Source: Rhodococcus jostii RHA1
GTDB taxonomy: Bacteria; Actinomycetota; Actinomycetes; Mycobacteriales; Mycobacteriaceae
Direction: 5' to 3'
NCBI RefSeq assembly: GCF_000014565.1
Contig: NC_008268.1
Location: forward strand, 4,654,501 to 4,718,500
Length of the DNA: 64,000 nt
A program made the position numbers and the translations under genes. The notes under the pieces were generated by a model. The model was not told where the DNA came from. It did not search any database and saw only the letters and a list, made by a program, of their open reading frames with translations. Of the stretch, positions 18,273 to 33,036 are shown in pieces (the stretch's first letter is position 1; each line of letters opens with the position of its first letter).

Positions 18273-18399
18273 GAGCCACCTCGTCCGCTGCGCAGGAGAT
18301 TGTGTTCGTTTTTTTCGCTTCATGGTTGAGGTATGGCCGCTCGGATGAACCACACGGTGTTGCCGCCGGGCGCCGACGATCGGGACCTTCTCACCCGCG

Positions 18400-18790
18400 T
18401 TGAAGTATGTTATCGCTGGTCAGGATGATGTGACGATCTCGACTCCGGAGGGTTCGGCGCCGTTGCCGGACAGTGTCCGGAGGCTGCTCGTCGACGCGGT
18501 CACGGCTCTGGATCGGGGGCAGGCGGTGACGGTGGAGCCGCATCGGACGGTGTTGACGACGCAGGAGGCCGCGGAACTGCTGGGCATTACCCGGCCGACG
18601 TTGGTGCGGTTGCTGGGCCGGGAAGATTCCGTACTCGTCGCCGGGCAGGCACCGGCGGGTGGAGTTGGCGGACGTGCCGGCCTTTCGACAACACGAGCGC
18701 GCGCGATGCGGTCAGGTGTTCGAGGAGATGGCGCACGAGGAAACCCCAGACCCCGGCGACGCCGCTGACGGCTTCGTCTCGACCCGCTGA
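18400..18790 (+). pseudogene. Frameshifted antitoxin-like helix-turn-helix gene
   Basis: The first frame has a MerR/excisionase-type helix-turn-helix typical of actinobacterial PIN-toxin antitoxins (LTTQEAAELLGITRPTLVRLLGRED). After about 18650 the family continues in another frame, with GRHRRVELADVPAFRQHERA and a tail ending at 18790. One or more indels have therefore split the gene. The intact module would bind DNA and neutralise a PIN ribonuclease. It is the first item in a zone of broken genes between core DNA and the biosynthetic island. Confidence 0.72.
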
Positions 18791-18808
18791 TCGAGGGGCA
18801 GGGCAACC

Positions 18809-19268
18809 ATGGCTGCCTGTCGGGTGGTTCTCGACGCGTGCGTCCGGCTTCCGCAGCTGACCGACGAGCAGATCGACTCGTTGCCGCCCGAGGTCCGGCA
18901 GACGTACCGGCAGCTTCGTGCGGTGGATCCGGCCGAATGTGGATCCCGACTTCCGGGCGGTACTGGCGCAGAAGTGGGTGCGTGACAACCACTGTCAGTT
19001 GACTGTTGACTGTTGACGGTTGGGAAAGTGAGGCGGTTGAGGCCGCCCTTGCCGGGCCGGTGCCGGCTCATCCGCTGTGGGTGCCTTTCGACCAGGATGG
19101 TCGCCCCATAGGTCGAGGCGCTCTACGTACTCGACGCCTCGGCGCTGGAGGGCGGTCTGTGGCAGCCGAACGATCCCCGGTACGTGTGCCCGGTCCTCGT
19201 GCATCTCGTCGACGGGCGTTGGCTGGTGCGAAATCTGGGGTCGGAGTCGGACCCTGCGACTACCACCT
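18809..19268 (+). pseudogene. Gene remnants: truncated PIN-toxin start and further fragments
   Basis: An ATG at 18809 opens MAACRVVLDACVRLPQLTD, where VVLDACV resembles the first strand of PIN-domain toxins, but the frame stops at 18985 after 58 residues. A second frame reads DPDFRAVLAQKWVRDNHCQ to a stop near 19016. A third region, 19006-19268, gives EAVEAALAGPVPAHPLWVPF and then, after a shift near 19110, VEALYVLDASALEGGLWQP up to a stop at 19268. None forms a whole gene. This looks like decayed mobile or toxin-antitoxin DNA at the island edge. Confidence 0.6.
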
Positions 19269-19416
19269 GAACCTACGTCGGTGCGGGCGGGGGTGGATGG
19301 TTGCCAGCCCCTGGGTATCTATCGCGCGATGCGGTGAAACCTCACGCTGGTTGAACGCCCGGCAGTCCGGGAGTTCCACGTATTGCTGTACTCCACAACC
19401 TATTCGAAGGCGCACA

Positions 19417-20436
19417 ATGTATTTCGACTTCCGTGACAAGCCCGACCGTCTCTGTGTCAAAGAAATGGTTCATGGCTACAACATATCCAGCTGCTTGTTC
19501 GTAGCCGTCGAGCTGGAGCTCGCCGATCTGCTGGCGGCGGGCCCAATGGCGCTTGCCGACCTCGCCCAACGAAGCGGCACTGATCCCGATGCGCTGAAGC
19601 GGATCCTCCGCCTACTCATGAGCGCGGGGATCTTCTCCGTGGACGAGCAGGACAGATGCGCACTCACGCCGCGAGCCGAATTCTTGCGCAGGGATAATCC
19701 GGAATCGATCGCAAGCGAGGTGGAGCTCTTTGCCGGCGCAGAAACGTACCTGGCCTGGAGTGAGCTGCTCCAATGCGCACGTACGGGACAGACAGGATTC
19801 GGCCAGTTCTTCGGCAAATCCCTCTTCGAGTACCTGGCCGAGCACCCCGACTCCGCCCAGCGCTTCCATCTGGGCTGGCACGAGATCTCGATCCGCGCCG
19901 GTCTCGAGACCGCGGAAGCGATCGATTTCACGGACAATCGGCACGTCGTCGATGTCGGCGGTGGCTACGGCATCGTGACCGCCCAGCTGTTGCACAAACA
20001 CGATCATCTGCGGGGCACGATTTACGACTTGGAGTTCTCGCTGGCCAGGGCCGGTCACACGTTGCGGGAATATGGCGTCGATGAGCGGTGTGGCATTGTG
20101 CCCGGCGACGGTTTCACAGAGGTGCCTGGCGGGGGCGACGTCCACCTGCTCAAGAGCGTTCTCCACACGATGAACGACGACGACTCGGTACGCGTCCTCA
20201 TCAATTGCGCGAACGCACTCGAGCCCGGCGGCAGGATCCTGGTCCTGGAGCGGGTGATCAGCGGGGACGGCGGATACGTCTGGGGAAATGTGGTGGACGT
20301 CGCCATGCTGGTCATGACGGGCGGCCGGGAGCGAACGATTCAGGACTACGCGCGCCTATACGAGCGCGCAGGCCTCGAACTCACCGGCAGTACGCTCCTG
20401 CCCTGCGGCTTCAGCGTAATCGAGGGCCGGAAGTGA
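19417..20436 (+). CDS. SAM-dependent O-methyltransferase (PF00891 type), first gene of island
   Basis: 339-residue small-molecule methyltransferase. An N-terminal helical dimerisation/winged-helix domain (about 15-95: LELADLLAAGPMALADLAQR, TDPDALKRILRLLMSAGIF) precedes the Rossmann domain with SAM motif HVVDVGGGYGIVTAQLL and the catalytic-region HLLKSVLHTMNDDDS. The general-base His region is LHTMND rather than the common LHDW. ATG 19417 follows GAAGG; the preceding 400 bp are gene remnants. It is related to the second methyltransferase of the island at 31.06 kb. It lies 58 bp before an ATP-grasp gene in the same direction. The acceptor is unknown; O-methylation of a phenol or enol is most likely. 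Confidence 0.87.
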   Translation: MYFDFRDKPDRLCVKEMVHGYNISSCLFVAVELELADLLAAGPMALADLAQRSGTDPDALKRILRLLMSAGIFSVDEQDRCALTPRAEFLRRDNPESIASEVELFAGAETYLAWSELLQCARTGQTGFGQFFGKSLFEYLAEHPDSAQRFHLGWHEISIRAGLETAEAIDFTDNRHVVDVGGGYGIVTAQLLHKHDHLRGTIYDLEFSLARAGHTLREYGVDERCGIVPGDGFTEVPGGGDVHLLKSVLHTMNDDDSVRVLINCANALEPGGRILVLERVISGDGGYVWGNVVDVAMLVMTGGRERTIQDYARLYERAGLELTGSTLLPCGFSVIEGRK

Positions 20437-20494
20437 GACCGGCCGGACGAGCGCGACCTCCGGGAATCAGCGGACCTCGAGGAGCTGGGTCGGC

Positions 20495-21721
20495 ATGGCT
20501 CACATTTTGATCGTCGGCGGACATGACGAGACTTTCCGAAGGATCGAAGATCTACCGGTCGAGCTGTCTGTGTTTCAGAATTCCGAATCGGTCACCGCGC
20601 GGCAGGCCAGGCGCGCCCACCGGCTGTGCGTATTCGATTACCGCAACCAGGCAGAGGCGCTCAGCATGGCGCAGGAGCTGCACGAGGTTGAACCCGTCGA
20701 TGCCGTCGTGTCATTCACCGAGCACGGCCTCATGCCGGCCGCCGTGATCAAAGAGGCATTGGGCATCAAGGGCAATGCGCGGGAAGCCGTCCGGTTGACC
20801 CGCGACAAGATCGCCATGCGCGAGCACCTGGCCGGCCGTGATCTCGGAGCTGTGCTGACCCGAAGCTGCGATTCGGCCTCCGAGGTACGGAGCTTTCTTC
20901 GGTCAGTGGGCGGCCCGATCATCGTCAAGCCGGCTGAAGGCGCCGGCAGCTCCGGTGTTTTTCGCGTCTCCAGCCTTGACCAGGTCGAATCCGCATTCGC
21001 CTGCTCTCGCGGCGAGTGCCCCGGGCCGACCCTCGTCGAAGAGTTCATCGACGGCCCCGAATACAGCGTCGAATCCTTCACCACGGATGGCCGGCACGAC
21101 ATCATCGCGGTGACCGCAAAAACCACCACCGGCCCGCCACGGTATATCGAAACCGGTCATCTGATGCCGGCCGCGCTCGCGGCATCGGCCCTTGCCGAGC
21201 TCCGCCGTCTCGTCACCGATTTCCTCAGTTCGATCGGTCATTCCTTCGGGCCGGCTCATACCGAAGTGCGTATCGGTTCGGCCGGGCCCCGGATCATCGA
21301 GGGCAATACCCGTCCTGGAGGCGATTTCATTTGGGAGCTGGTGCACCGTGCGATGGGTCGCGATCTGGTCCGGGAGTCGATCTGTCATCTTGCCGGGCTG
21401 CCGCCGCAATCGCGAGCACCCGGGCGCGGTGCAGGCTGCGTCGCATTCTTTGGTTACGAGAATGTGGTGATCGAACGCGTGCAGGGCATCGAAGCCGCGC
21501 GTCAGGTCGAGGGGGTCATCCGGTTGCAGTGTTCTCTCGAACCAGGGCAACACCTCGGTCCACTCCGGTCCTCTGCGGATCGTCAAGGTGTCATAGTCGC
21601 GGTCGGCACTGATCTCGTGGACGCCGAGCGCCGCTTGGCTGAGGCGCAGGCTCGGATTCGGGTGGAGACGAGCGCCTACGTAGATCTCGTACTATCTGCC
21701 ACTGGTGTGGCTGATGGTTGA
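20495..21721 (+). CDS. ATP-grasp ligase 1
   Basis: 408-residue ATP-grasp enzyme. It has an N-terminal pre-ATP-grasp domain (MAHILIVGGHDETFRRIEDL), a lid/ATP-binding region (GGPIIVKPAEGAGSSGVFRV; VEEFIDGPEYSVESF) and the metal/catalytic end PRIIEGNTRPGGDFIWELV. Such ligases activate a carboxylate as acyl phosphate and join it to an amine, often making dipeptides outside NRPS systems. GGAG precedes ATG 20495. The stop overlaps a small ORF. A second, only distantly similar ATP-grasp is convergent, so the island could make two amide bonds. Substrates are unknown. Confidence 0.87.
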   Translation: MAHILIVGGHDETFRRIEDLPVELSVFQNSESVTARQARRAHRLCVFDYRNQAEALSMAQELHEVEPVDAVVSFTEHGLMPAAVIKEALGIKGNAREAVRLTRDKIAMREHLAGRDLGAVLTRSCDSASEVRSFLRSVGGPIIVKPAEGAGSSGVFRVSSLDQVESAFACSRGECPGPTLVEEFIDGPEYSVESFTTDGRHDIIAVTAKTTTGPPRYIETGHLMPAALAASALAELRRLVTDFLSSIGHSFGPAHTEVRIGSAGPRIIEGNTRPGGDFIWELVHRAMGRDLVRESICHLAGLPPQSRAPGRGAGCVAFFGYENVVIERVQGIEAARQVEGVIRLQCSLEPGQHLGPLRSSADRQGVIVAVGTDLVDAERRLAEAQARIRVETSAYVDLVLSATGVADG

Positions 21722-21905
21722 GATGTACGTGTGTCACGGCTACCCGCATCACCGTGTGGTGGTGTGGGTTGGACCGTGTCCCACACCGACGCTTGTGGTG
21801 CAGGAACATGCTGTGTCGGAGTCACCCCCGCCCGCGGCGTTGTGGTGCGGAGGCTGCGGCGGACCCGGCGACAAATACGAGAATCCGATAGATAGCTTTA
21901 GATAA
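21714..21905 (+). CDS. Small Cys/His/Pro-rich ORF overlapping the ATP-grasp 1 stop
   Basis: Possible 63-residue protein starting MVEMYVCHGYPHHRVVVWVG, with Cys in CHGYPHH, GPCPTP and LWCGGCGG; CGGCGG and the early CxxxxxH could bind metal. The ATG lies inside the end of the ATP-grasp gene (8-bp overlap), suggesting translational coupling, and an alternative ATG is at 21723. Codon third positions are GC-rich for most of its length but the last codons are AT-rich. I recognise no family. It may be a small metal-binding protein, a peptide substrate, or chance. Confidence 0.35.
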   Translation: MVEMYVCHGYPHHRVVVWVGPCPTPTLVVQEHAVSESPPPAALWCGGCGGPGDKYENPIDSFR

Positions 21906-21935
21906 ATTGACAACAGCTGACAGCCCTCTCCCGCA

Positions 21936-21968
21936 CTGACCGGGCAGATTCACGTTCTGTCCGGTCAG
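21936..21968. terminator. Hairpin between convergent ATP-grasp operons
   Basis: CTGACCGG-G-CAGA pairs with TCTG-T-CCGGTCAG around a 7-base loop, giving a 12-bp stem with one G-T pair. It separates the rightward methyltransferase/ATP-grasp genes from the leftward five-gene operon and overlaps the stop codon of the latter. Confidence 0.8.
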
Positions 21969-23224
21969 CCAGTTGTGGGGCATTGCGTGGGCTGCTCAAT
22001 CGGTACGACTTGCACGGTCGTCAGGATTTCGCGAATGAGTGAGGTCACTTCAGAGCTCGACCGGCCGGCGACGATGCCGCTGACGGGCAATTCGAAATCG
22101 AAATAGCTCACGGTCTCCGGAAGAGAAGCGCCCGCATCCAGCTCCTTCCATCGAACAACGTCTGGGTGGGCCTGAAACCGTTCTCCACCCGATATCGCGC
22201 AGTACCGCGACGGAAGCAGGTGACCCGGGAACATGAAATCCCCGTAGACCGTACTGCTCGCCGTACTTTCGAACCACCGTTTCAGTGGATTGATTTCGAG
22301 AGGTGACCAATCGAGGTTGCAGGCCAAACCGGCCGCGACCAAGTCGATGCCTGTGGCAAGCCTGAATGTCTCCTTGATATGTCCGCCGCCAGGGCGGGCG
22401 CCGACCTCCAGGAAAACCATTCCATCTGCGGCCTCAATCATTTCGAGATGGAATGGGCCATTGTCGATACCCACGGCCCGAAGGTACTCGACCGCTACCT
22501 TGCAACGCCCACCGTCGTCGTCGACTTGAATCGATCCCTGCGGAACTCCCTGGGCAAACTCGAGGCAAGTGCCCAGATATCTGCTGGCGACGATCGCCAC
22601 CGGCGCACCGGCAAGCATCACGCCATCGAAGTGGAAGATCGGCCCCTCCACATATTCTTCGAGCTGGAAGCGTTCCGGATCCCAGTCCTCCAGACCCGTA
22701 GGGTGGTTGAGAATCGCAGTGCCGGCGTCAGCGTAGGTGGCGAAAACGAAAACATCCTTGCTGGCGGTTCCATCGAGTGGTTTGAGCACCGTCTTCCCAG
22801 CCCAGGGAGTGACATCGGCGGAGGAAGCGGTGAGCGCCTCATCGCAGCGAACAAATCTGGGCACGCGAAGTCCGCATCCTGCGACTGCGGCTTTCATCGC
22901 TACCTTGTCGTTCACGATGTGGACCTGCTCCGGTGATACTCCTTCTACTCCGAGGCTCCGTCTTATCTGCGCTGCCTCCATCATCTCGTACTGGGAGACG
23001 CTGATGACTCGGTCGAAGGCATCGTCGGGGGAGAACAGGGTGCGAACTTCCTCGGCCAGACCCGCTCGACCCGGGCGTTCAACCCTCGTGCAAGGAAGTT
23101 CGGGCGGCACGGTCGCAAGTTGCGCACTCGAGCCCACGTAGACGACATCGTGAATTCCATGATCGATTACACGATGGTATTCGATGAAGGAATACGGAAC
23201 GCGATGGAGAATGAGCAGTTTCAT
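21965..23224 (-). CDS. ATP-grasp ligase 2
   Basis: 419-residue ATP-grasp enzyme of the carboxylate-amine ligase group. N-terminal domain MKLLILHRVPYSFIEYHRVI; ATP-binding strands GKTVLKPLDGTASKDVFVF and FQLEEYVEGPIFHFDGVML; metal end DGMVFLEVGARPGGGHIKET. The E-x-x-A-RPGGG block is like that of amino-acid and dapdiamide-type ligases. It is the last gene of the leftward operon, 125 bp after the aminotransferase, with a weak ribosome-binding site. It shares only the fold-level motifs with ATP-grasp 1, so the two probably use different substrates. Confidence 0.87.
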   Translation of the reverse strand: MKLLILHRVPYSFIEYHRVIDHGIHDVVYVGSSAQLATVPPELPCTRVERPGRAGLAEEVRTLFSPDDAFDRVISVSQYEMMEAAQIRRSLGVEGVSPEQVHIVNDKVAMKAAVAGCGLRVPRFVRCDEALTASSADVTPWAGKTVLKPLDGTASKDVFVFATYADAGTAILNHPTGLEDWDPERFQLEEYVEGPIFHFDGVMLAGAPVAIVASRYLGTCLEFAQGVPQGSIQVDDDGGRCKVAVEYLRAVGIDNGPFHLEMIEAADGMVFLEVGARPGGGHIKETFRLATGIDLVAAGLACNLDWSPLEINPLKRWFESTASSTVYGDFMFPGHLLPSRYCAISGGERFQAHPDVVRWKELDAGASLPETVSYFDFELPVSGIVAGRSSSEVTSLIREILTTVQVVPIEQPTQCPTTG

Positions 23225-23349
23225 TCAGAAGACCCCACTGGATGGAATATCGTTCGGCGAAATGGACTTTCACCTTCCAGTACTATCCCGGGCCGACGGC
23301 CGTGAAACTAGGAACCCTGGGGGGAAGGATGACCCACCTTGCTTGGTCG

Positions 23350-24204
23350 TCATCGGATCGCGGACCGGCCGTTGGTCAAGTGCCGATACTCGGTTGCAAT
23401 CGCATCGACCACTGCGGACTTCGCATACCGGATCTCGTCGATGCCGGAAACCTCCATGATTTCGATCGCAGTCCCGCACAGAAACGCGGCGTCGAACGAT
23501 CCGATCTCGTCGTAGGCGATGTCGCGTTCCGTTACCGAGAGCTTCAGTCGCGGACACAGCTCATCGATTATCACCCTTCGGGTAATTCCGTCGAGGGCCA
23601 ATTCGGCAGTCGGCGTGAACAATGCGTTTCCCTTGACGAAGAACACGTTCGAGCCGCTCGACTCGCACACAGCGTCGGCTGTCGAGAGGAAGAGCACATC
23701 ATCGTAGCCGTCGGCCCGCCCGCGGTGGCTCAAGTAGCTCAACGCGTAGGTAGACGACGTTTTCGCCTGATACGGGTGGCACGAGGCGGGTGCACGCCGC
23801 CACGTTGCCGTCGAGAGCCGATATTGCTCCGCGGCCGAATTCGAAGGAAAGGGCAGGGCGAACAGGACCACCTTGCTGGAAGAGCCCTGCGCCTTGAAAC
23901 TCACATCGGTGTCGTCATAGAAGACCAAGCACTTGATGTACGCATCGGCCAGATCGTTGGCCCTCACCAATTCGTGGCACGCGTCGGCCAAGTCCGCATT
24001 CGAATAGTGCACGGTGTGCCCGAACAACTCGGCGGACCGTCGCAACCTCGCTATGTGGTCGTCGCATTTGAAGATGCTGCCGCCGTATGTGCGGATACCG
24101 TCGAACACCGAGGTGGCATAGGACAACCCATGGGTGGCAGGTGACAGGATCACCTCGTCGAATCGCACGCATCTTCCATCTGCCCAGGCTATTTCGCTGA
24201 TCAT
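23350..24204 (-). CDS. Class IV PLP-dependent aminotransferase
   Basis: 284-residue fold-type IV PLP enzyme related to branched-chain aminotransferase, D-amino-acid aminotransferase and aminodeoxychorismate lyase. The PLP lysine is K148 in CHPYQAKTSSTYALSYLS; the cofactor-binding acid is in CESSGSNVFFVKG; GTAIEIMEV replaces the usual G-T-A/T phosphate loop. ATG 24204 is favoured over 24216 because GGAG sits 8 bases before it; the start overlaps the previous stop region. In the pathway it could install or remove an amine on an oxidised intermediate, or cleave a C-N/C-C bond as a lyase. Confidence 0.86.
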   Translation of the reverse strand: MISEIAWADGRCVRFDEVILSPATHGLSYATSVFDGIRTYGGSIFKCDDHIARLRRSAELFGHTVHYSNADLADACHELVRANDLADAYIKCLVFYDDTDVSFKAQGSSSKVVLFALPFPSNSAAEQYRLSTATWRRAPASCHPYQAKTSSTYALSYLSHRGRADGYDDVLFLSTADAVCESSGSNVFFVKGNALFTPTAELALDGITRRVIIDELCPRLKLSVTERDIAYDEIGSFDAAFLCGTAIEIMEVSGIDEIRYAKSAVVDAIATEYRHLTNGRSAIR

Positions 24205-24205
24205 C

Positions 24206-25132
24206 TCAGTCTCCATGTCGCGATCTCGCGTAGTCTTGCATCGCCTGTGTACGCTGTGTGTTGACCGGAATCAGCCAGTTGTCCAGGTCGACAATGTGAA
24301 TTGCGCCCACCCGGACCTTCGCGTCGATGGCGCCTCGGCCGAGACAGACGTCCGCGAAACCCAGCCGATCCGCGAAATGATACATTTGGTAGTAGTCGGC
24401 GATATACAGATTCAACCCACGCGGAATTCGGTCATGGTCCAGTCCCCGAACGAGTTTCGTAAACACGCCACGGTGATCGTCGGCGTAGCTCAGTGATCCG
24501 GCCAACGGAGTATTCGAATACTTGTCGTAGTCCAGCTTCACGAAGTATTTCTCACCTTCGGACGAGCGTGCCAGCATACGCAGCACATCGCTCGTATAGA
24601 GGTTCTTGGCGTGTCGGTACTTGGCCACATTCAAGGCCTGAAGGCAGGCGAAATCGCGCAGGACCCGATTGTCTTCTGCCACGTCCGAGAGACGGTGTAT
24701 CTCGGTTGTGCACGCCGCTTCGGCCTTCCTCGTGAGCCTGACGATTGATTTGTATTGGCTGGCTCCTACCGCGGTTCGCAGGGCGAGGTCCACACTTCGC
24801 GAAGACCGGAAGAATGCCGCCTTCATGAATGGAACTGCAATGACGTCGGCGCGCCGACGGCGATCGGATCTGCGAAGGGAAGGGACCAACAACCAGTCGG
24901 CGGTTGACGCCAGGCTCGACAACTCCGCCAATGTCCGATCGTCGGGCTCGTCGCACACGGGCATGTAGAAGTATCCGGGTGCGACGTACGCTCGCTCGTG
25001 ATGCAGGGCGTCATTGCTCCTCACGCTGCCCTGGAGTACCGCGTTCCAGTGCGCGATGTTCCTCAGCGGAAGTTGTGGCCGTGGAACGTTGTGACTGTTA
25101 CAGAACGCATCGCGTTGGGGCAGCCATTCCAT
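24206..25132 (-). CDS. GNAT-fold acyl- or aminoacyltransferase-like protein
   Basis: 308-residue protein with a C-terminal FemAB/GNAT-like domain: YFVKLDYDKYSNTPLAGSLS, then DHDRIPRGLNLYIADYYQMY and HFADRLGFADVCLGRGAIDAK resemble the strand-helix-strand end of large GNATs that share the FemAB fold. It may transfer an acyl or aminoacyl group to an amine of the island product. ATG 25132 has a perfect AGGAGGA site and lies inside the end of the ABC gene (35-bp overlap). The N-terminal 100 residues match nothing I know. Family-level assignment is tentative. Confidence 0.6.
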   Translation of the reverse strand: MEWLPQRDAFCNSHNVPRPQLPLRNIAHWNAVLQGSVRSNDALHHERAYVAPGYFYMPVCDEPDDRTLAELSSLASTADWLLVPSLRRSDRRRRADVIAVPFMKAAFFRSSRSVDLALRTAVGASQYKSIVRLTRKAEAACTTEIHRLSDVAEDNRVLRDFACLQALNVAKYRHAKNLYTSDVLRMLARSSEGEKYFVKLDYDKYSNTPLAGSLSYADDHRGVFTKLVRGLDHDRIPRGLNLYIADYYQMYHFADRLGFADVCLGRGAIDAKVRVGAIHIVDLDNWLIPVNTQRTQAMQDYARSRHGD

Positions 25133-28100
25133 GGTCTTCCTCCTGTCCATTCCAGTTCCGATCGGCTGTCGTGTGCGACTGGCCAGAATCCTCGAGGAGG
25201 CGTCGCTGGCCGTTGAAGTGGAAGACTCGGTTGGCAAGTTCGGTCAGCTCGGGATTGTGCGTGATGATGAAGAAGAGCGTGTCCGGCAAGGCAGAGATCA
25301 CGGCCTGCAATATCGAGAGCTCCGCTGTTGTACTCAACTCGGAAGTCGCTTCGTCGAGAATTGCGACCGCCGGGCGATTGATCAACAGGTCGAGGAGCGC
25401 CAGCCGCTGCAGTTCCGTCTTGCTCAGATTCAACTGACCGGTGGCAGGGACGGGCTCGTCGAATCCGGACGGTAGTCGCCCGACGACGTCTGCCACGTCG
25501 AGATAGTCGACGACGCGAGCCAATTCGAGCGGTAACGGGCTGTTGAAGTGTTCGATCAATCTGCCTGGCTTGAAGATCGGACTCGACGTCAGGAGGAGGA
25601 TGTCTTCGGCGTGGGAATTCGAGACGTATCCCGTCGTCCGGCCCAATGTCGAGAGGACGCCTGTTGTCGGCTGCAGACTGCCCACAACCAGCTTCGCAAA
25701 TGTCGACTTACCGACCCCGCTCGGGCCCATGACGACCACGACGTCTCGGCTGGCAAAGGACTCGGAAAGCTCTTCCAGTAGCACCGCCCCGGTGTGCGGC
25801 GCGACGTACGTTACCTCCGAAAACGATACGAGCGCTGCGTCTTCAACTGCTGAGCGGGTCCAGCACTGCGCCGGGCCGGTCGGAGGCGTGAGGAGACGAT
25901 CCGCGCTGTCGAGAACCTGTCTGAGGTCCACCAGGCAACGGCCCACTCGGGCGAAGACAGCGATGAGGCTGTACGAGAGACTGAGCGCGAGAACACCGCT
26001 GAGACCGGATCCGCCGCCGGCCTGGACAAACACAGTTGAACCGACGACGACCGACAGGAAGAGCACACCCATCAAATCGAGCTTGTAATTGAACCAGCGG
26101 CGCGCGCCCGCATTGTCCATCGAAGCGAAGGCGCGATTCATCAAACTCTTGTTCAGCCAATTGACGAGGGCCGAGTTGTCGCGTGCCAAGTCGAATCTCG
26201 CTGAGCTCCAGGTAATGGCCTCGACCCGCTCCAACACGGTCGACGTCGTACCGATCTCTCTATCGTTGAAGTCCTGCAGTCGCCTTCCCGATCGCTTCGA
26301 ACTGTGCCAGTAGGCGAAGCACATCCCGACAAGGGGCAGCAGGACGAAAATGTTCTTGCTCAATACGAACGCGGCGGTCGTGAGCAGCAATGTAACCGCA
26401 CCCAGCGTATTCAGAAGTACTTCTGGCAGAAGTTCGTCGATACGTCGTTGATCCCAGGTCAGTTTGCTCTGATAGTCCTGATCGACCTCGTCGAAGGCCG
26501 GCCTGGGCTTTGGACTCATGACGGTCGAGAAGTAATTCCGACATTTGCGGGATGCCGCCACGATGCTGCGTTTGACTATGAACAGGGAGGTGAAAATCGA
26601 CAGGAGGGCCCCGGCGGACAGTGCGGCGATGAGGGTTGTCGCTGCTGTCCGCGCATTCGTGGTCGAAATTCCGCTGGCAGCTGTGTAGTCACCGACAATC
26701 GTCAGAACGTCGCGGCACGCAAACAGGACGCATGCGACAACCGCGACCTTCGCGACGCCCAGGCTCATCAGACTGCGGCGTGACGAAGTCGAGAGTTCCG
26801 CTCGGTCCACGCCCTGGGGACGGCGAGCGACCGACCGATCCTCTGGAGCGAGAAGCCTTTTGCGTTCTCGAGCAGGGTTCGCCGCACGTGGTGTGAGGTT
26901 TCGCATCACCTCCACGACTTCGCCTCCGGCCACTACCCATATCTCGTCTGCAGCATCTTTTTCATCGGGCTTGTCCGTTGCATAAATGACCGTGGTGTCG
27001 TGCCACGGCCCGCGCAGAAGGGAGGCCAACAGCCCATTCGCCAGGTCGTCGTCCAGCCCTGCTGTGGGCTGATCCAGGTAAACGAACTTCGGTTCGGCCA
27101 GTATTGCCCGTGCCAGTTCCAGCCGCTTCCCCTGCCCGCGGGACACGTTCCAGCCCTCGGTCCGGTCGCGTGACTTGCTCGAGAGGTAGTCGCCGTAGAA
27201 GGTTCCGGGAAGTCGGGACAGTGCCAAGGCTCGACGGGCCTCGTCGTCGGTGAATTCGCTTCGATAGAGACACAAATTCTCGTAGAGCCCGCCAGGGAAT
27301 ATCCACGGTTCATCCGGTACGAAGAACGTTTTGCTGTTCACCTGGCTGCTGTGGCGTGCACCGATTTTCAGAACGGACGTCTTGCCACTGCCTGCGGCGC
27401 CGACGACGGCGATGTGCTTCGCCGTTGTTGCCGGTAGGCGCGTTGCGGTCGCATCGGTGTCCAGCGAGTGCGGACTGGATAGATACTTCGCAACGTTGGT
27501 GTGCCCGACAATGCCCTGGGACAGACTCTGAACAATGAAGGGGATATTGTTGGCGACGGATTTCAAGCCTCCGACCAGCGCCATTGTGGACAACAGGCCT
27601 GCTGGATCGACGTAACCAACGTGGGCCAGCTGGGTAAACACCGCGGCAAGCATGGCAACGATCGGAGTGAGTGTCGATATGAGGTTGATCCGCGCGATGA
27701 GACGCGCCGCTTTCAGGAGCGCGCGCTCCTCGCCATCTCGCTTGTCGGCATAGCGCCGAAAGAGTTCGTCGTTCCAGTTCTTGAGCCACGCGAGCAGGCG
27801 ATTGTTCAGCGAAAACAGGCCGACTTCGATGCGATCTGCCGCCGTCGCCGACAGTGCAGCGTGCGCGGCATTCAATTGTTTGGCGTTCCAGTAGATCACC
27901 GCGGAACTGACGAGAATCACCGACAGGGCCGCCAGAGCGCTCAGTCCCAACGCCACGAAGAAGTACGCGGAGGTAAAGGTGATGGTTGCGAGTGCCAAAA
28001 TGATGAAAATGATTCCCGACCAAGCATTTTCGACGCGTGCTGCCTCCCGGTCCAGAAGGGTGACCAGGTCGGCCGGTTGGTCGGAAGGGGCAATGCTGCG

Positions 28101-28538
28101 TTTCTTGTGCAGCAGCCTTTGTTCGATGTATGTCCGGGCTCCGATGCCTACCACGTCGGCTTGCATGAAGGTGTGATTCAATGCAAGCCACGCCAAGTAG
28201 GTCAGCACGATGCAGGTGATACCAAGCGTGAGGTTCGTCGTGAGTGCTGAATCGCCGGTGACGAGGTGCTGGATAAGCGATTTCAGCGTGATCGCAGCAC
28301 CGAAGGCGCATCCTGCATTGACCGCGATGGCCACGAGCCCGAGCATGATGTCACGACGAAGTCCGCCGAAGACGGATCTGCTCAGTCGCTCGCCTCGGAG
28401 CGCGTTCACGCTGTCCCGCTGCGCCGCGTCACACCACCGCTGCCATCTGGCAAGGTGCGAGGCGTTGGGCACAGGGTCGAGTCGAGTTCGGGGTTTGGGA
28501 ACCTCGAACCAGACGACTTTCCTGAGGACGCTCAGCAT
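25098..28538 (-). CDS. Full-length ABC exporter (TMD-NBD-TMD-NBD) with degenerate first ATPase
   Basis: 1146 residues: two exporter halves in one chain. NBD1 has Walker A GAAGSGKTS (about 379) but a weak signature (VSRGQGKRLELARAIL), Walker B ending FVYLDQPTAGLD with Gln where the catalytic Glu belongs (about 489), and YATDKP instead of an H-loop His. NBD2 is normal: GPSGVGKST (about 937), LNLSKTELQRLALLDLL, VAILDEATSEL, IITHNPEL. This asymmetry is known from heterodimeric ABC exporters. Membrane segments fill about 30-330 and 600-880. ATG 28538 overlaps the upstream stop (ATGCTGA). It most likely exports the island product and gives self-protection. Confidence 0.9.
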   Translation of the reverse strand: MLSVLRKVVWFEVPKPRTRLDPVPNASHLARWQRWCDAAQRDSVNALRGERLSRSVFGGLRRDIMLGLVAIAVNAGCAFGAAITLKSLIQHLVTGDSALTTNLTLGITCIVLTYLAWLALNHTFMQADVVGIGARTYIEQRLLHKKRSIAPSDQPADLVTLLDREAARVENAWSGIIFIILALATITFTSAYFFVALGLSALAALSVILVSSAVIYWNAKQLNAAHAALSATAADRIEVGLFSLNNRLLAWLKNWNDELFRRYADKRDGEERALLKAARLIARINLISTLTPIVAMLAAVFTQLAHVGYVDPAGLLSTMALVGGLKSVANNIPFIVQSLSQGIVGHTNVAKYLSSPHSLDTDATATRLPATTAKHIAVVGAAGSGKTSVLKIGARHSSQVNSKTFFVPDEPWIFPGGLYENLCLYRSEFTDDEARRALALSRLPGTFYGDYLSSKSRDRTEGWNVSRGQGKRLELARAILAEPKFVYLDQPTAGLDDDLANGLLASLLRGPWHDTTVIYATDKPDEKDAADEIWVVAGGEVVEVMRNLTPRAANPARERKRLLAPEDRSVARRPQGVDRAELSTSSRRSLMSLGVAKVAVVACVLFACRDVLTIVGDYTAASGISTTNARTAATTLIAALSAGALLSIFTSLFIVKRSIVAASRKCRNYFSTVMSPKPRPAFDEVDQDYQSKLTWDQRRIDELLPEVLLNTLGAVTLLLTTAAFVLSKNIFVLLPLVGMCFAYWHSSKRSGRRLQDFNDREIGTTSTVLERVEAITWSSARFDLARDNSALVNWLNKSLMNRAFASMDNAGARRWFNYKLDLMGVLFLSVVVGSTVFVQAGGGSGLSGVLALSLSYSLIAVFARVGRCLVDLRQVLDSADRLLTPPTGPAQCWTRSAVEDAALVSFSEVTYVAPHTGAVLLEELSESFASRDVVVVMGPSGVGKSTFAKLVVGSLQPTTGVLSTLGRTTGYVSNSHAEDILLLTSSPIFKPGRLIEHFNSPLPLELARVVDYLDVADVVGRLPSGFDEPVPATGQLNLSKTELQRLALLDLLINRPAVAILDEATSELSTTAELSILQAVISALPDTLFFIITHNPELTELANRVFHFNGQRRLLEDSGQSHTTADRNWNGQEEDHGMAAPTRCVL

Positions 28539-29584
28539 GTGGAGTACGTGGGGACCGCCGTGTCGGCCAGGGCGATCGACGCGATTCTGTCGCACAATTG
28601 CGTGATCATCTTCCATCCCTCGGCGAGTGCTTCGCGGAGTTCTCGAATCTCGGCCGGCGTTGCGCGATCGAGCAGATCGATCCCCATACTCACGTGCTGG
28701 CCGTCGTCTTCTCCGTGTTCTTGGAAGTGCGGAATTGCCGGAAACGCTCGCGCCGCTTCCCGGTGCCAGATTTCGCCACTACCTTCAAGCACCACATGCA
28801 TCAGCAGAGTGCGCACCATGTCGCTCCGGTACAGCATTTGATGCCTGAACCACTCCATTGTCGATACGAACGTCTCATCGGTGACCGGCGCGTGCGCTGA
28901 TCCCCGTTGGTTGCGCAGGTTGTCGTTATGGCCCAGTTCCTCGACCAGATGGTCGAGCGCCACCTGCTTGTGCGCCGTATCGGTGGTCATCGCGACACGC
29001 AGGTGCAGCAGGTCCTGAAACACGTCCGACCAGGTCTGCTGGCAGTCGAGCAGCCGTTCCCGAACGTGGGGGTCGTCGAACGAGGGGTCATCGATCAGCC
29101 GCAACAGGCTGCTGGTACCAAATTGCTGCAGGTACTTCTCGTTGTCCGCCAGGAGCACAGCCGCCCGATTCGGTACCTCGCCTGCAAACACCGCGTTGGG
29201 CTTCTCGGCGTCCTCGTAGAGTGCCTTGCCGTTGAACTGGATCGAGAGCGCCCAGAAACCGTCCCGGGTTCCTTCGAAGCCGTGCCAGGAGTCGCCGGGG
29301 ACGAGGATCATGTCTCCCGCACCGACCTCCTGCTCAGCACTGCCCATCGTTCGTCCGGAACCCTCGCAGATCAGGATCAGACTGGGCTCCGGGTGCTTGT
29401 GCACCGCCAGCACCTCACCGCACTCCAACCTGACCCAGCTGATCGCCAAATTGCTGGAGGCAGGAATGAATTGCGCCAACTGAGGGTGTTGGCTGAATAT
29501 CTTGACGACACCCAGGTTGTGGACGCTCCCGCCGACAACGGCTTCGTTGATCGTCTCGAGTGCGCTTCTGGCGATTATGTGCAT
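28532..29584 (-). CDS. Cupin fused to haem-oxygenase-like diiron oxygenase (HDO) domain
   Basis: 350 residues, first gene of the leftward operon. Residues about 45-120 are a cupin (VHKHPEPSLILICEGSG; VPGDSWHGFEG) with likely metal ligands H62, H64 and H101. Residues about 145-335 are helical and carry an HDO ligand set: E216-x2-H219 (EELGHND), E267 or E271 (LEGSGEIW), and H290-x3-D294-x2-H297 (EHGEDDGQH). HDOs such as SznF, UndA and CADD perform N-oxygenation or oxidative C-C cleavage; SznF is HDO followed by cupin, the reverse order. ATG 29584 has an AGGAAG site. N-oxidation of an amine is my best guess. Confidence 0.78.
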   Translation of the reverse strand: MHIIARSALETINEAVVGGSVHNLGVVKIFSQHPQLAQFIPASSNLAISWVRLECGEVLAVHKHPEPSLILICEGSGRTMGSAEQEVGAGDMILVPGDSWHGFEGTRDGFWALSIQFNGKALYEDAEKPNAVFAGEVPNRAAVLLADNEKYLQQFGTSSLLRLIDDPSFDDPHVRERLLDCQQTWSDVFQDLLHLRVAMTTDTAHKQVALDHLVEELGHNDNLRNQRGSAHAPVTDETFVSTMEWFRHQMLYRSDMVRTLLMHVVLEGSGEIWHREAARAFPAIPHFQEHGEDDGQHVSMGIDLLDRATPAEIRELREALAEGWKMITQLCDRIASIALADTAVPTYSTC

Positions 29585-29801
29585 AGATTTCTTCCTTCTG
29601 TGGGATCGACCTGCCTCGAGTTCTGTATCGCTCCCAATCCTGGGCACGTGCCTGCGGGCGGAACAGGCACCCCAGGGTTGAAAACGTCACCCCCCCAGCG
29701 GAAAGGGTGTCGAGAAGTCTCCCTAGGGTGTCTATCCGCATTCGCCACGCGTCGTCGAAGCTAGCTGAACACCGCAGTACGGATGAGAGGCGAGTTTCGC
29801 A
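29585..29801. promoter_or_regulatory. Divergent promoter region of the biosynthetic island
   Basis: 217 bp between the leftward five-gene operon and the rightward haem-oxygenase/methyltransferase pair, so promoters for both must lie here or just inside. It includes a C-rich run near 29691-29697 and CTAGGG/CTAGCT segments, but no clear palindrome. No regulator gene is found in the island. Confidence 0.5.
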
Positions 29802-31058
29802 TTGATTTCCGAAACGCTGCTCGAAGCCGAGCAGAAATTTGTTCGTTCCGGCGTGATCGGCGTCGGAGGCGCGTGCCTTCAGGCTGCTGAAGCGACGACC
29901 GATGAATTGTCTGGACGCAATATCGAGAATGCGCTCCGACAATGGGAGGCGGGACACGCGGAGTTTCCCCATGCGGCTGTCGCGGCCCATTATCAGACGG
30001 TCGGGCGTAGCGGGGTCCGGCCCCACCTGGTCGCCATGCTGCAAAACTTCCATGACAACAACCGTGCGCATCCTGTTCTCGGTGCCTGGCTACCGATGAC
30101 GTTCGATGCTCAGAATGGCGACTATCTGTCATATGTCGGGCTCGACTATTTCGACCAGGTCGTCCGGTCCGATGACGCGCAGCGCGTGGACGCATTCGTT
30201 GCTGCCGCGGCCATGGACCTCGCGTTGTTGGAGGCGCGAGCACTCGGGAGGTCGGCACACGCCCCCCAGGTGGTCCGGACGCGCGCAGTGACACGGGTCG
30301 TGACCCAACTCGACAGGCTCGCACCCGATTTCTCGCTCGATCCTTCCGTCGCTGCGGCCGGTCTTGCGGCGCTGGCTCAGCCGGGCGCCGACTACAGTTC
30401 GTTTGCTTCACACGCCGCGCCGGCGCTGAACGGTGTCCCCGAAGAGATCGGAAGTGCAGTTCGGCTGACGTTGTTGCCGACGACGCGCCTGCACGACGAG
30501 CAGATGTTCATCCGCTGCATCCAGATCTTCGAAGGTCTGTATCGGCAAGTCGCGATAGCGATTTCGATGGCGATCCGTGACCTGGGTCATGGTCTGGCCG
30601 CAGTGGCAAAGAGTCGCCTCGACCGGGCGTCGATCCGCCTCGAAGCGGTGCCTGCGCTCTTCCGGGTTCTCACGACGATGCCGGTTGACGCCTTCTCGAT
30701 TATTCGCGGCTTCACCCATGGGCGGAGCGCGGTGCAGTCGCGCGCGTTTCGTGAAGTGGAGTTCGCCTGCGCTCCACTCGATCCCCGTGACTTCGAGCAT
30801 AATGGGAAGATCGATGTCGGGGACACTACGTTGCAGGACGTGTATCTCTCGATGCGGAAGACGCATCCGGATGCACACGTTCTCGAGGAGGCGATGCGGC
30901 GCCTGGACCGTGCGTGGGTTGCGATGAAGCGCGGCCACTGGGGCATCACCCTGAAAGTCATCGGAACGGTACCTGGCACCGGCGGTACGGCAGGCGCGTC
31001 GTATTTGAAAGATGCTGCGATGATGTCACTCTTCCCGCGGCTGTCCGAGGTGGCGTGA
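29802..31058 (+). CDS. Tryptophan 2,3-dioxygenase/PrnB-superfamily haem-dependent oxygenase
   Basis: 418 residues. The C-terminal half aligns by eye with tryptophan 2,3-dioxygenase: LHDEQMFIRCIQIFEGLYRQ, then LEAVPALFRVLTTMPVDAFS, SRAFREVEF, and WVAMKRGHWGITLKVIG leading to PGTGGTAGASYLK and FPRLSEV. H379 matches the proximal haem ligand and R302 the carboxylate-binding Arg. The distal His of TDO (FxxxHQ) is Ile240 here and SGFQS is changed, so it is not a normal TDO; a PrnB-like or other oxidative reaction on a Trp- or aryl-type substrate is likely. About 200 N-terminal residues are extra. TTG start, supported by GAGAGG upstream; it is followed directly by a methyltransferase. Confidence 0.72.
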   Translation: MISETLLEAEQKFVRSGVIGVGGACLQAAEATTDELSGRNIENALRQWEAGHAEFPHAAVAAHYQTVGRSGVRPHLVAMLQNFHDNNRAHPVLGAWLPMTFDAQNGDYLSYVGLDYFDQVVRSDDAQRVDAFVAAAAMDLALLEARALGRSAHAPQVVRTRAVTRVVTQLDRLAPDFSLDPSVAAAGLAALAQPGADYSSFASHAAPALNGVPEEIGSAVRLTLLPTTRLHDEQMFIRCIQIFEGLYRQVAIAISMAIRDLGHGLAAVAKSRLDRASIRLEAVPALFRVLTTMPVDAFSIIRGFTHGRSAVQSRAFREVEFACAPLDPRDFEHNGKIDVGDTTLQDVYLSMRKTHPDAHVLEEAMRRLDRAWVAMKRGHWGITLKVIGTVPGTGGTAGASYLKDAAMMSLFPRLSEVA

Positions 31059-31060
31059 AC

Positions 31061-32056
31061 ATGAGCGATGTCAACCACCGAGTGAGAAAGCAGATCATGG
31101 GATACATCGTGTCCCAATCTATTTCAGCCGTCTGCGAACTGGGTGTGCCCGACCGATTGGCGGACGGTGCGTGCTTGCTCGGCGATCTCGCGGCGAGCGT
31201 GGGCGCCGACGCCGACGCACTCGGTCGATTCCTGCGGGTCCTCGTCGCGGAAGGCTTGTTTGCGGAAGTCGGTGGAGGGCGATTTGCGTTGACGGAGGCC
31301 GGTGAGCTTCTGCGGGCAGACGCTCCGGGCTCGCTTCGTCACTTGGTCGGCTTGATGTCGAACGAGGCCTACCTCGTGTGGGGGCACGCAGCGCATTCGA
31401 TCCGGACGGGGAAGGAGTCGTTTTCAACGGCGTTCGGAAACCCGTACTTCGAATGGTTGTCCGAGAATCCGTCGGCAGCCGATGAGTTCGCACGGGGCCA
31501 AGCAGGGCTGGTCGAGTTGCGTTTGCTGCCTTTGCTCGACCACGACTGGTCTGACGTGGGAACGGTCGTCGACGTCGGTGGCGGGACCGGCGCGCTGATC
31601 ACCCGGTTGCTCGATCGGCACGCGCATCTACGCGGAGTTTTGTTCGATCTGCCTCATGTGGTCGCGGAAGCGCCGTCGACGTTTGGTTCGGCGGGCATCG
31701 GTGAACGAACGACAGTCGTGGGCGGAAGCTTCTTCGACGACGTCCCAGGCGATGGTGACGTGTACGTGCTGTCTCAGATTCTCCACGACTGGGATGACGC
31801 GTCCGCCGGCAAGATTCTCGGCAGTTGCCGGCAAGCGATCCCGCCAGGTGGACGATTGATGATTGTCGAGCAGGTCCTGCCGGAATCGGCGACAACCCAC
31901 CCCATGGCTCTGCTGGATCTCCACATGCTGGTTCTCCTGGGAGGTCGCGAGCGCACGATCACCGAATGGCGCCGACTGTTGACCGACCACGGATTCACGC
32001 TGGATTCGATCACGCAAGGTCCCCGGTCATCCGTCATCGAAGCGGTTCCGGTGTGA
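31061..32056 (+). CDS. SAM-dependent O-methyltransferase (PF00891 type), second copy in island
   Basis: 331 residues. N-terminal helical domain (VSQSISAVCELGVPDRLADG, LGRFLRVLVAEGLFAEVGGG), SAM motif TVVDVGGGTGALITRLL, catalytic region VLSQILHDWDDASAGKIL with the usual LHDWDD, and a C-terminal dimer segment. The ATG is 3 bp after the haem-oxygenase stop (a GTG at 31055 would overlap it), so the two are translated together. Its closest relative in the window is the methyltransferase at 19.4 kb. The stop is 1 bp from the mutY stop on the other strand, the sharp right edge of the island. Confidence 0.9.
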   Translation: MSDVNHRVRKQIMGYIVSQSISAVCELGVPDRLADGACLLGDLAASVGADADALGRFLRVLVAEGLFAEVGGGRFALTEAGELLRADAPGSLRHLVGLMSNEAYLVWGHAAHSIRTGKESFSTAFGNPYFEWLSENPSAADEFARGQAGLVELRLLPLLDHDWSDVGTVVDVGGGTGALITRLLDRHAHLRGVLFDLPHVVAEAPSTFGSAGIGERTTVVGGSFFDDVPGDGDVYVLSQILHDWDDASAGKILGSCRQAIPPGGRLMIVEQVLPESATTHPMALLDLHMLVLLGGRERTITEWRRLLTDHGFTLDSITQGPRSSVIEAVPV

Positions 32057-32057
32057 G

Positions 32058-32936
32058 CTAGCTGCCCTCGCCCGCGAGGGCGAAGAGTCCGTCGTCGGTC
32101 TGTTCGACGAGGCCGTCGATCAGCAGGGAGTGGAGGGCGCGGTCGCGTTGGCCCGGATCGCCCGGCCACACCTGGTCGAGCCGCACGCGTTCGACCGGGG
32201 AGGAGCTCTCACGGAGTACGGCCATGAGCTTGCCGCGCACCTGACGGTCGGTTCCGGCGAATTTTTGGACCTTCCGGCGCTCACCGGTGTGCGCGGGACG
32301 TCCGGCATCCACCCAGGCGCAGCTGGGGAGCGGGCAGCGGGCGCATTCGGGGGAGCGTGCGGTGCACACGGTGGCCCCGAGTTCCATCAGGGCCGCGGAG
32401 AACGTGGCGGCCCGCGCGCGGGTGCGGGGGAGCAGCGCGGACACGTCGGCGAGGTCACGCGTCGTCGACGGATTTCCCGGCTCGGCGCTTCCGTGCACGG
32501 CCCTGGCCACCACTCGCCGGACGTTCGTGTCGACGACGGGGACCCGCTGTCCATAGGCGAAGCAGGCGACGGCGCGCGCAGTGTAGGCACCGATACCCGG
32601 CAGGCCGAGGAGAGTGTCGACGTCGCTCGGAACCACGTCGCCGTGTTCGGCGGCCAGCACGCCGGCGCACTCGTGGAGCCTCAGCGCGCGACGCGGGTAG
32701 CCCAGCTTGCCCCATGCGCGCAGTACGTCGGCCTGGCTCGACGCGGCCATGCGGGACGGGACGGGCCAGCGCCGCACCCATTCCTCCCAGATCGGGGCCA
32801 CTCGGACGACGGGCGTCTGCTGCAGCATGATCTCGCTCATCAGGATGTGCCAGGCGGTGACGCCGTCGCGGCGCCACGGCAAATCCCGGGCCTGTACGTC
32901 GTACCAGTTGATCAGCGCGGCGGAGTCAACGGCCAC
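32058..32936 (-). CDS. mutY: A/G-specific adenine DNA glycosylase
   Basis: Removes adenine mispaired with 8-oxoguanine or G. 292 residues from GTG 32936 (GAGGA site before it). Helix-hairpin-helix and active site region SEIMLQQTPVVRVAPIWEEW, LLGLPGIGAYTARAVACFAYGQRVPVVDTNVRRV (shown in outline), and a [4Fe-4S] cluster motif C-x6-C-x2-C-x4-C in VCTARSPECARCPLPSC; the last spacing is one shorter than in E. coli. The C-terminal domain is shorter than in E. coli MutY. It faces the carbonic anhydrase gene divergently, as in mycobacteria, and marks the return to core synteny. Confidence 0.95.
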   Translation of the reverse strand: MAVDSAALINWYDVQARDLPWRRDGVTAWHILMSEIMLQQTPVVRVAPIWEEWVRRWPVPSRMAASSQADVLRAWGKLGYPRRALRLHECAGVLAAEHGDVVPSDVDTLLGLPGIGAYTARAVACFAYGQRVPVVDTNVRRVVARAVHGSAEPGNPSTTRDLADVSALLPRTRARAATFSAALMELGATVCTARSPECARCPLPSCAWVDAGRPAHTGERRKVQKFAGTDRQVRGKLMAVLRESSSPVERVRLDQVWPGDPGQRDRALHSLLIDGLVEQTDDGLFALAGEGS

Positions 32937-33036
32937 TTCGTCCTCACAAGTCCCTTCGTTCACGGGGGAAACAGATTTTCCGCGGTTGTCACATTCCCGT
33001 CGCGACGGTGCGTCACGCCCGGTGCACAATGATCCC

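Follow-up and report, generated by a model that had tools for sequence, protein, structure and literature searches.

We favour reading a 13-kilobase stretch of Rhodococcus jostii RHA1 DNA as an NRPS-free, horizontally moved island in which two joined gene modules would make a small, exported, peptide-like metabolite, and put the probability of this reading at roughly 0.55. The stretch covers 19417-32056 of the window, i.e., of the 64,000 nucleotides analysed as a whole. Its nine genes are all present and intact, without internal stops. The island is GC-poor (0.608 vs. 0.673) and is flanked by an alpha/beta-hydrolase gene on one side and a mutY-like gene on the other; at this site merely 18-193 bp lie between the flanks in 4 of the 16 genomes searched. 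A first-pass annotation had proposed a self-contained, NRPS/PKS-free island with an exporter, directed at a modified amino acid or short peptide, and the present results support it. They also reproduce its three transcription units and gene order. With gene starts as chosen by us, its observation that most starts in the leftward operon overlap the preceding gene holds for three of four junctions (7, 35 and 11 nt); at the remaining one, a 125-nt gap separates AT4 and LIG2. The features are as follows.

19417..20436, + strand: MT1, class-I SAM methyltransferase with Methyltransf_2 (Pfam 2.4e-33) and dimerisation domain, 339 aa
20495..21721, + strand: LIG1, L-amino-acid-ligase-type ATP-grasp (ATP-grasp_4 + LAL_C2), 408 aa
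21936..21968, no strand: inverted repeat with a 7-nt loop and arms of 13 nt that are 92% complementary
21965..23224, - strand: LIG2, divergent ATP-grasp ligase, 419 aa
23350..24216, - strand: AT4, class-IV PLP aminotransferase, 288 aa (Pfam 7e-50)
24206..25132, - strand: Fem (the "GNAT"), double-GNAT protein of 308 aa, predicted to be a transferase dependent on aminoacyl-tRNA
25098..28538, - strand: ABC exporter, a single CydDC/type-I-exporter-like chain of 1146 aa with two nucleotide-binding halves
28532..29584, - strand: cHDO, N-terminal cupin (3 His) and C-terminal haem-oxygenase-like diiron domain (HDO), 350 aa
29585..29801, no strand: divergent intergenic (putative promoter) region with CCCTAGGG palindrome and repeated CCC..GGG half-sites
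29802..31058, + strand: TDOL, TTG start, long haem protein of the TDO family that lacks the catalytic distal His, 418 aa
31061..32056, + strand: MT2, SAM methyltransferase starting 2 nt past the TDOL stop, 331 aa

Pfam and NCBIfam identified Methyltransf_2 (twice), ATP-grasp, Aminotran_4, two ABC_tran domains in one chain, Cupin_2 and Trp_dioxygenase; the HDO half and the "GNAT" gave no profile match and their folds were settled by predicted structures. In the pathway that we propose, cHDO of the core module would oxidize an amino-acid-type substrate at two iron sites, AT4 would set or remove the alpha-amino group, Fem would move an amino acid from a charged tRNA onto the oxidized unit, an ATP-grasp ligase would add a further residue, and the double ABC protein would export the product. 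In the second module, TDOL would use haem and O2 to act on an aromatic, tryptophan-like amino acid held by a kept carboxylate Arg, MT2 (and MT1) would methylate the oxidized ring or hydroxyl, and LIG1/LIG2 would couple the TDOL-derived unit to the remainder. If true, this adds a peptide pathway that uses both charged tRNA and ATP-grasp ligases, with a little-studied cupin-HDO fusion at its centre. Searches of an open-access library showed no described cluster with the same gene set, in line with the first-pass annotation, to which no characterised cluster of this combination was known.

The predicted structure of cHDO divides into a cupin (residues 1-135) and an HDO domain (about 138-344). Foldseek gave cupins in the 50 PDB rows listed, and the HDO fold of the C-terminal half was found by VIA-align. 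The putative diiron ligand set E216, H219, E267, H290, D294 and H297 (3 His and 3 carboxylates, 3H/3C), assigned by residue spacing rather than coordinates, is kept in 27/27 rows of alignment A1 (the window protein plus 26 of 65 homologues), as are H62, H64 and H101 of the cupin. The sequence thereby retains ligand residues for two predicted sites that would each bind metal. In predicted fold and invariant 3H/3C set the C-terminal half is like AetD and the CADD/UndA/PolF/BesC HDOs, whereas the cupin domain is lacking in the matched chains of those proteins.

Because the nearest predicted folds, the nitrile synthase AetD and CADD, are tied (rows within 1 Z were counted as equal), N-oxygenation by the HDO half would be just one option of several. 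It is possible, if rather unlikely, that this half instead acts like AetD and turns the side chain of an aromatic amino acid into a nitrile, or breaks C-C bonds otherwise; the cupin would then act on the product or substrate and Fem and the ligases would decorate it, with no N-oxidation or N-N bond. Against this, a common fold proves no function, the match is a tie, and nothing in the matched AetD chains (229-238 residues) corresponds to the N-terminal cupin.

Of 28 Rhodococcus genomes, the own genome counted, nine carry cHDO, and precisely these nine also carry TDOL; the two are clustered in all nine loci read, so the genes treated as one set in the first-pass annotation do co-occur elsewhere. 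In G013 the cluster lies at a different chromosomal place. Partial gene order recurs in Pseudomonas, Nocardia, one cyanobacterium and Streptomyces. The Pseudomonas core order ligase-cHDO-ABC-Fem-PhyH-AT4 is seen in 5/5 loci (in L011 the ligase is two ORFs and AT4 extends past the contig end), with cHDO, ABC exporter, Fem and AT4 50-67% identical to the island proteins, and both Nocardia loci have cHDO-Fem-AT4. Two Streptomyces loci (L111 and L112, of three fetched at E <= 1e-40) carry TDOL-MT2 with LIG1- and LIG2-like genes, the gene adjoining TDOL being 61% identical to MT2. This TDOL quartet stands without cHDO in L111 and L112, and none of the five Pseudomonas loci shows TDOL beside the core within the stretch fetched. 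The island is two modules joined: a core of ligase, cHDO, ABC, Fem and AT4, and a set of TDOL, methyltransferase and two ATP-grasps. Such modules offer genome-mining anchors that NRPS/PKS rules would miss.

The occurrence of each module on its own would also be expected if two separate pathways were merely adjacent, the Pseudomonas-type core leading to one product and TDOL-MT2-LIG1-LIG2 to another, with only the locus and promoter region in common. We regard this as unlikely: the modules are together in 9/9 Rhodococcus carriers, even at the different place in G013, and R. tibetensis (L006) and G013 (L104) have a single visible ligase, between TDOL and cHDO, which the modules would therefore share. 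In these two loci the MT2 gene alone was matched, not MT1, which has 89-97% matches in Rhodococcus koreensis (L003), opacus (L004), sp. PMG_259 (L005), G006, G019 and G024.

Outside Rhodococcus, TDOL and Fem relatives probably share a contig in Mycolicibacterium moriokaense (P0018, P0166) and in one further source (P0021, P0180), as the contigs of each pair have the same listed length; two homologue searches scored just the ~8,000 candidates with the most words in common. Seven genomes (L097-L103) have more distant TDOL relatives, 23-31% identical where TDOL matched, and near them no MT2-like gene was found except in L097 (29-30%). The plasmid search gave four records that partially match TDOL, at 28-32% across 40-46% of its length, and one record, from Embleya, with cHDO; within the 31 kb fetched for the latter the other eight island proteins were unmatched. 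The phyla in which the cHDO family is present include Actinomycetota, Pseudomonadota and Cyanobacteriota. A genome contig scan found at least 36 loci, a lower bound because it used a single peptide pattern; the cHDO tree holds 29 of these (without L014, L019, L021, L034, L036, L037 and L038), Embleya and the window.

The domain combination of cHDO recalls SznF, in which one chain holds a diiron HDO and a mononuclear 3-His cupin (H407, H409, H448) (PMC11705231). Like SznF/StzF, cHDO joins a diiron-type HDO domain and a 3-His cupin in one chain of an amino-acid-type pathway. SznF has an N-terminal domain, a central HDO and a C-terminal cupin, whereas cHDO has the opposite order, with the cupin N-terminal, and no third domain. 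No SznF chain was among the PDB sequence matches of cHDO or the 50 VIA-align rows listed; its absence from these 50 rows carries no weight against a resemblance. Hydrazine synthetases have a MetRS-like partner and a cupin Glu four residues past HxH (E56 in PyrN, E69 in RHS1; PMC8664883). A cupin of that kind was rejected for cHDO, which has Ser (26/27 rows) or Gly (1/27) at the key position, and no MetRS model was among the Pfam matches of the nine island proteins. Predicted oxygenase-cupin plus ATP-grasp operons with HDO-HDO-cupin proteins were described in Biol Direct 2010 (PMC2922099), and the island shares with them an HDO and cupin protein, ATP-grasp peptide ligases and an efflux transporter. 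In contrast to the island, the proteins there are HDO-HDO-cupin, and section 8 of that article mentions neither a Fem nor a TDO-like enzyme nor a class-IV aminotransferase; it does name a PLP enzyme and a methylase, under another theme.

The protein first labelled a GNAT does have the GNAT fold, twice in the chain, but a simple GNAT it appears not to be. Its predicted structure shows a double-GNAT fold across nearly the full length when compared with FemX, Sba18/Sbb17 and MprF; sequence similarity to solved FemX-type members is undetectable. Because of this likeness to FemX and tRNA-dependent peptide synthases, Fem is probably an aminoacyl-tRNA-dependent transferase, and peptide bonds may therefore be made in two ways, by Fem and by ATP-grasp. 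K271, near the C-terminus, is invariant in 16/16 rows of alignment A3 (window, 12 of 24 homologues and three loci) and is a candidate for the catalytic residue. The catalytic Lys is Lys305 in FemX and Lys329 in DhpH-C, and the pathways to valanimycin, dehydrophos, pacidamycin and BD-12 are known to use GNAT-fold tRNA-dependent transferases (PMC12945691). Judged against FemX, Sba18/Sbb17 and MprF, Fem has the predicted double-GNAT fold of the group formed by FemX, VlmA, DhpH/DhpK, PacB and Orf11/Sba18, and its invariant Lys near the C-terminus may correspond to their catalytic Lys; unlike these, it is paired with a cupin-HDO and ATP-grasps.

A more daring extension, which we consider doubtful, would make the cassette a tRNA-fed maker of N-N (or N-O-acyl) bonds: HDO would N-hydroxylate an amine, Fem would, like VlmA, place a tRNA-borne amino acid on the hydroxylamine as an ester, and the cupin would rearrange the ester to N-N. 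SznF, hydrazine-synthetase and valanimycin logic would then move between phyla as one cassette, with TDOL performing a new oxidation and the product being O-methylated.

Peptide bonds in bacilysin-type pathways are made by ATP-grasp enzymes. By that analogy the "GNAT" could be a normal N-acetyltransferase that uses acetyl-CoA and protects the producer from a toxic dipeptide or amino acid, with ATP-grasp as the sole peptide-bond maker; this seems improbable. LIG1 combines ATP-grasp with the LAL C-terminal domain of L-amino acid ligases (Pfam LAL_C2 3.1e-18; PDB L-amino acid ligase BL00235 6.5e-19). LIG2 is weakly ATP-grasp (Pfam 0.0016, below cut-off; PDB L-amino acid ligase 4wd3 6.4e-06) and has no LAL_C2 match.

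TDOL belongs to the TDO family (Pfam Trp_dioxygenase 8.9e-11), but residue mapping rejects an ordinary TDO. I240 aligns with the distal His, which is missing in 26/26 family rows (Ile 25, Leu 1). R302 aligns with the lid Arg and H379 with the proximal His, and both residues and the GTGGT loop are kept in 26/26 rows, in agreement with the proximal His, carboxylate Arg and GTGGS/T of TDOs. These counts are from alignment A2 (window plus 27 of 92) with the genuine TDOs P0088 and P0089 excluded; the match of profile A2 to TDO chains is flattered because the profile held these two rows. MarE 2-oxindole monooxygenases have His55, a DATG loop and an SLGGR loop (PMC11904535), where TDOL has Ile, GRSA and GTGGT. 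With TDO and MarE it shares the TDO core, proximal His, carboxylate Arg and two Tyr, and with TDO the GTGGT loop; unlike them it has Ile/Leu for the distal His, GRSA for the PASG (TDO) or DATG (MarE) loop, and about 200 residues ahead of the HDE segment. Since the distal His is lost and the lid loop changed, TDOL is, judged by its residues, neither TDO nor MarE and forms a subfamily with a changed lid loop. If true, this adds a TDO subfamily that lacks the catalytic His and keeps haem- and substrate-binding residues, a natural test of the role of the distal His.

The closest solved relative of MT2 is CalO6 (PDB 4.9e-76). Because CalO6 and other natural-product methyltransferases are the nearest solved proteins among the best 60 of 77 matches, predicted O-methylation is preferred, and C-methylation of the type performed by MppJ, a C-methyltransferase, is disfavoured. 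AT4 is nearest to branched-chain amino-acid aminotransferases (NCBIfam PRK07544, 221 bits vs. a cut-off of 396). The exporter matches ABC_tran in two stretches (best 1.1e-23), ABC_membrane in one stretch, below cut-off, and CydD/CydC-like NCBIfam models, also below cut-offs; the layout points to a second TM half.

The host is a degrader of aromatic compounds, and in other bacteria cHDO-family genes adjoin genes for a CoA-transferase, an MFS protein and a Rieske protein like that of anthranilate dioxygenase, but a catabolic or detoxifying island whose oxygenases degrade an aromatic compound is very improbable: the ATP-grasps and methyltransferases, together with Fem and an ABC protein of exporter type, suit synthesis rather than breakdown. 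The cyanobacterial cHDO locus L024 encodes a kynurenine-3-monooxygenase homologue (PDB 7.3e-91; best NCBIfam label VioC, below cut-off), which hinted at kynurenine substrates. We did not adopt this idea: TDO-family matches were present in 3 of 13 genomes searched, but in neither of the two cyanobacteria nor either of the two Nocardia included.

Among non-coding elements, no conserved RNA was found in 17500-33100 at gathering thresholds, and AACCCTGGGG, which occurs in two island gaps, has 4 matches in the window at <=1 mismatch vs. 3.01 expected, not above chance. The inverted repeat lies where the LIG1 and LIG2 units converge, its right arm entering the last LIG2 bases; it is terminator-like and may act as such. 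The CCCTAGGG palindrome between cHDO and TDOL is kept in 7/7 Rhodococcus sequences aligned, and it and the half-sites could have a regulatory role.

The conserved core of the island is the gene order ligase-cHDO-ABC-Fem-AT4, in which cHDO joins an N-terminal cupin to a haem-oxygenase-like diiron domain, ABC is an exporter with two nucleotide-binding domains, Fem is a double-GNAT protein and AT4 is a class-IV PLP aminotransferase. This order was found in all five Pseudomonas loci with one extra gene ahead of AT4 (PhyH-type in L007, homologous in the other four), although in L011 the ligase is present as two ORFs and AT4 is truncated by the contig end. Identity to the window proteins was 64-67% for cHDO, 50-53% for ABC, 50-51% for Fem and 59-61% for AT4, but only 29-35% between the Pseudomonas ligase and the ATP-grasp protein LIG1. 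In two Nocardia loci, cHDO is accompanied by a SnoaL-like gene, by Fem and AT4 (31-32% each) and by a gene homologous to a styrene-monooxygenase-like flavoprotein. Besides cHDO, Fem (29%) and two ATP-grasps, the cyanobacterial locus L024 has genes for a methyltransferase, a tryptophan halogenase, a class I/II aminotransferase and a homologue of KMO. In total, 12 of the 36 cHDO loci have a Fem relative within the fetched stretch; the remaining loci have other partners or are truncated at the end of a contig. The cHDO tree, built by a quick method and with some long branches elsewhere, places Rhodococcus and Pseudomonas in one group (SH-aLRT 100) separate from Nocardia. Since Nocardia is closer kin of Rhodococcus than Pseudomonas is, this grouping fits a transfer between phyla.

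The island product is best read as a peptidic metabolite assembled without an NRPS, for which we infer each chemical step. cHDO would supply an oxidised unit, the aminotransferase would contribute a step, Fem would add an amino acid from tRNA, and ATP-grasp enzymes would carry out further coupling. The haem protein TDOL would oxidise a second, aromatic unit, which MT2 would methylate, and export would be the last step. On a bolder reading, Fem and cHDO would jointly form an N-N or N-O linkage. The first-pass annotation knew of no characterised cluster with this combination, and searches of an open-access library found none with the island gene set, so a product may already have been described elsewhere. 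The nearest published prediction found (PMC2922099, section 8) is an operon type of HDO-HDO-cupin plus ATP-grasp.

cHDO itself is not tied to peptide making, because it also occurs with Rieske, CoA-transferase, TauD, MFS and FMO-type genes. It adjoins an anthranilate-dioxygenase-like Rieske alpha subunit in Photorhabdus, Chromobacterium and Vibrio neptunius (L022, L023, L026 and L037, from 10 kb on); in L022 this subunit matches the AndAc model at 3.7e-102, below the model's cut-off. The same loci contain a small partner and homologues of a CoA-transferase, TauD and an MFS protein, their functions being annotated in L022 only. In Pseudoalteromonas, cHDO lies with Rieske and FMO-type genes. The Bdellovibrionota relatives of cHDO (L031-L036) are longer, at 492-543 aa, with an additional N-terminal part ahead of the cHDO match.

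Alternatively, the two modules could make two products. The second module, TDOL-MT2 with ATP-grasps resembling LIG1 and LIG2, is present without cHDO in two loci of a Streptomyces group, L111 and L112, with identities to the window of 61% for MT2, 42-43% for TDOL and 30-32% for the ligases. Within Rhodococcus, TDOL and cHDO occur in the identical 9 of 28 genomes (the window's own counted), and clusters were read in all nine; the island genes, earlier described as a self-contained pathway, do co-occur in other genomes. In a wider draw of 401 genomes of the family, TDOL was found at E <= 1e-40 in those same nine only. At this threshold it was found in 3 of 392 genomes of the L111/L112 genus, the third of which (L113) has an NRPS gene adjoining TDOL and lacks an MT2-like gene. 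None of the partners accompanies a more distant TDOL relative (31%) found in L098 of this genus. L111 (2423-11432) and L112 represent a second unexplained cluster, in which no NRPS genes were seen: TDOL-MT2 adjoins two LAL-type (L-amino-acid ligase) ATP-grasps and one further ATP-grasp, together with an MFS protein, a radical SAM protein of HutW/HemW-like type and a homologue of AdoMet decarboxylase, with functions as annotated in L111.

Cluster history is suggested by R. tibetensis (L006) and Rhodococcus genome G013 (L104), where a single ligase lies between TDOL and cHDO and the query with the methyltransferase MT1 matches the MT2 gene only. The window's MT1, LIG1 and LIG2 may thus reflect later alterations of a Rhodococcus cluster of seven genes, in an order of events that we infer. 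TDOL and Fem homologues whose contigs are listed with equal lengths, in Mycolicibacterium moriokaense (P0018/P0166) and likewise in another source (P0021/P0180), suggest further merged clusters beyond Rhodococcus.

The window (4,654,501-4,718,500 of contig 1, in a genome of 9,702,737 bases and four contigs) carries all nine island genes intact. The GC content of 19417-32056 is 0.608, versus 0.673 in the rest of the window minus the flanking gap 18273-32057. The insertion site is delimited by two genes:

17517-18272, left flank, alpha/beta-hydrolase gene (Abhydrolase_6, 8.1e-23)
32058-33050, right flank, mutY-like gene (TIGR01084, 4.1e-56, below the equivalog cut-off)

Their spacing is 13,785 bp in the window. 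Among the 16 Rhodococcus genomes searched, it is 14,296 bp in cluster-bearing G006, 18 bp in G016, 193 bp in G023, 25 bp in G002 and 101 bp in G013, whose site is empty and whose own cluster lies near 2.08 Mb. Because 11 of the 16 hold 3.2-5.4 kb of other DNA there, the site accepts other inserts too. The stretch of about 1.1 kb between the hydrolase and MT1 (18273-19416) has no gene recognisable by eye and possibly consists of remnants of earlier inserts.

With the gene starts chosen in this analysis, the earlier observation that most starts in the leftward operon overlap the previous stop holds for three junctions (cHDO/ABC, 7 nt; ABC/Fem, 35 nt; Fem/AT4, 11 nt), while AT4 and LIG2 are separated by 125 nt; between the TDOL stop and the start of MT2 there are 2 nt. 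The divergent promoter region (29585-29801, 217 bp) contains the palindrome CCCTAGGG, kept in 7/7 aligned Rhodococcus sequences, and several ACCCC/GGGTG half-sites; from these motifs, a shared operator is a possible candidate.

The TDOL sequence alone matched TDO chains at 7.1e-06, whereas its family profile, which included two genuine TDO rows, gave 6.5e-46 for the best TDO chains and 1.6e-12 for MarE chains. Ungapped stretches of the alignments put I240 at the position of the distal His in 2nox, R302 at that of the lid Arg and H379 at that of the proximal His; in XcTDO these residues are His55, Arg117 and His240. The distal-His position is Ile in 25 and Leu in one of the 26 family rows, all of which have a GRSA lid loop and invariant Arg238 and Arg308, two arginines missing from the two TDO rows. 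For MarE, PMC11904535 names His55 and Arg118. Four more distant relatives have Leu at the distal-His position and a GASA loop, and two of them adjoin a short TDO-family gene with the His retained. On a Streptomyces sp. NBC_01343 plasmid (NZ_CP108363.1; L115, 8899-14207), such a short gene directly adjoins the long His-less relative within an NRPS cluster. On a Micromonospora zamorensis plasmid (NZ_CP107937.1; L116, 5852-14109), genes for nitric oxide synthase, a globin, a short TDO-family protein, a class-V aminotransferase, the His-less long relative and MFS proteins all lie on one strand. Elsewhere, the window's genome has another TDO-family match, a 300-aa frame at G000:C1:1901878, which is probably the housekeeping enzyme.
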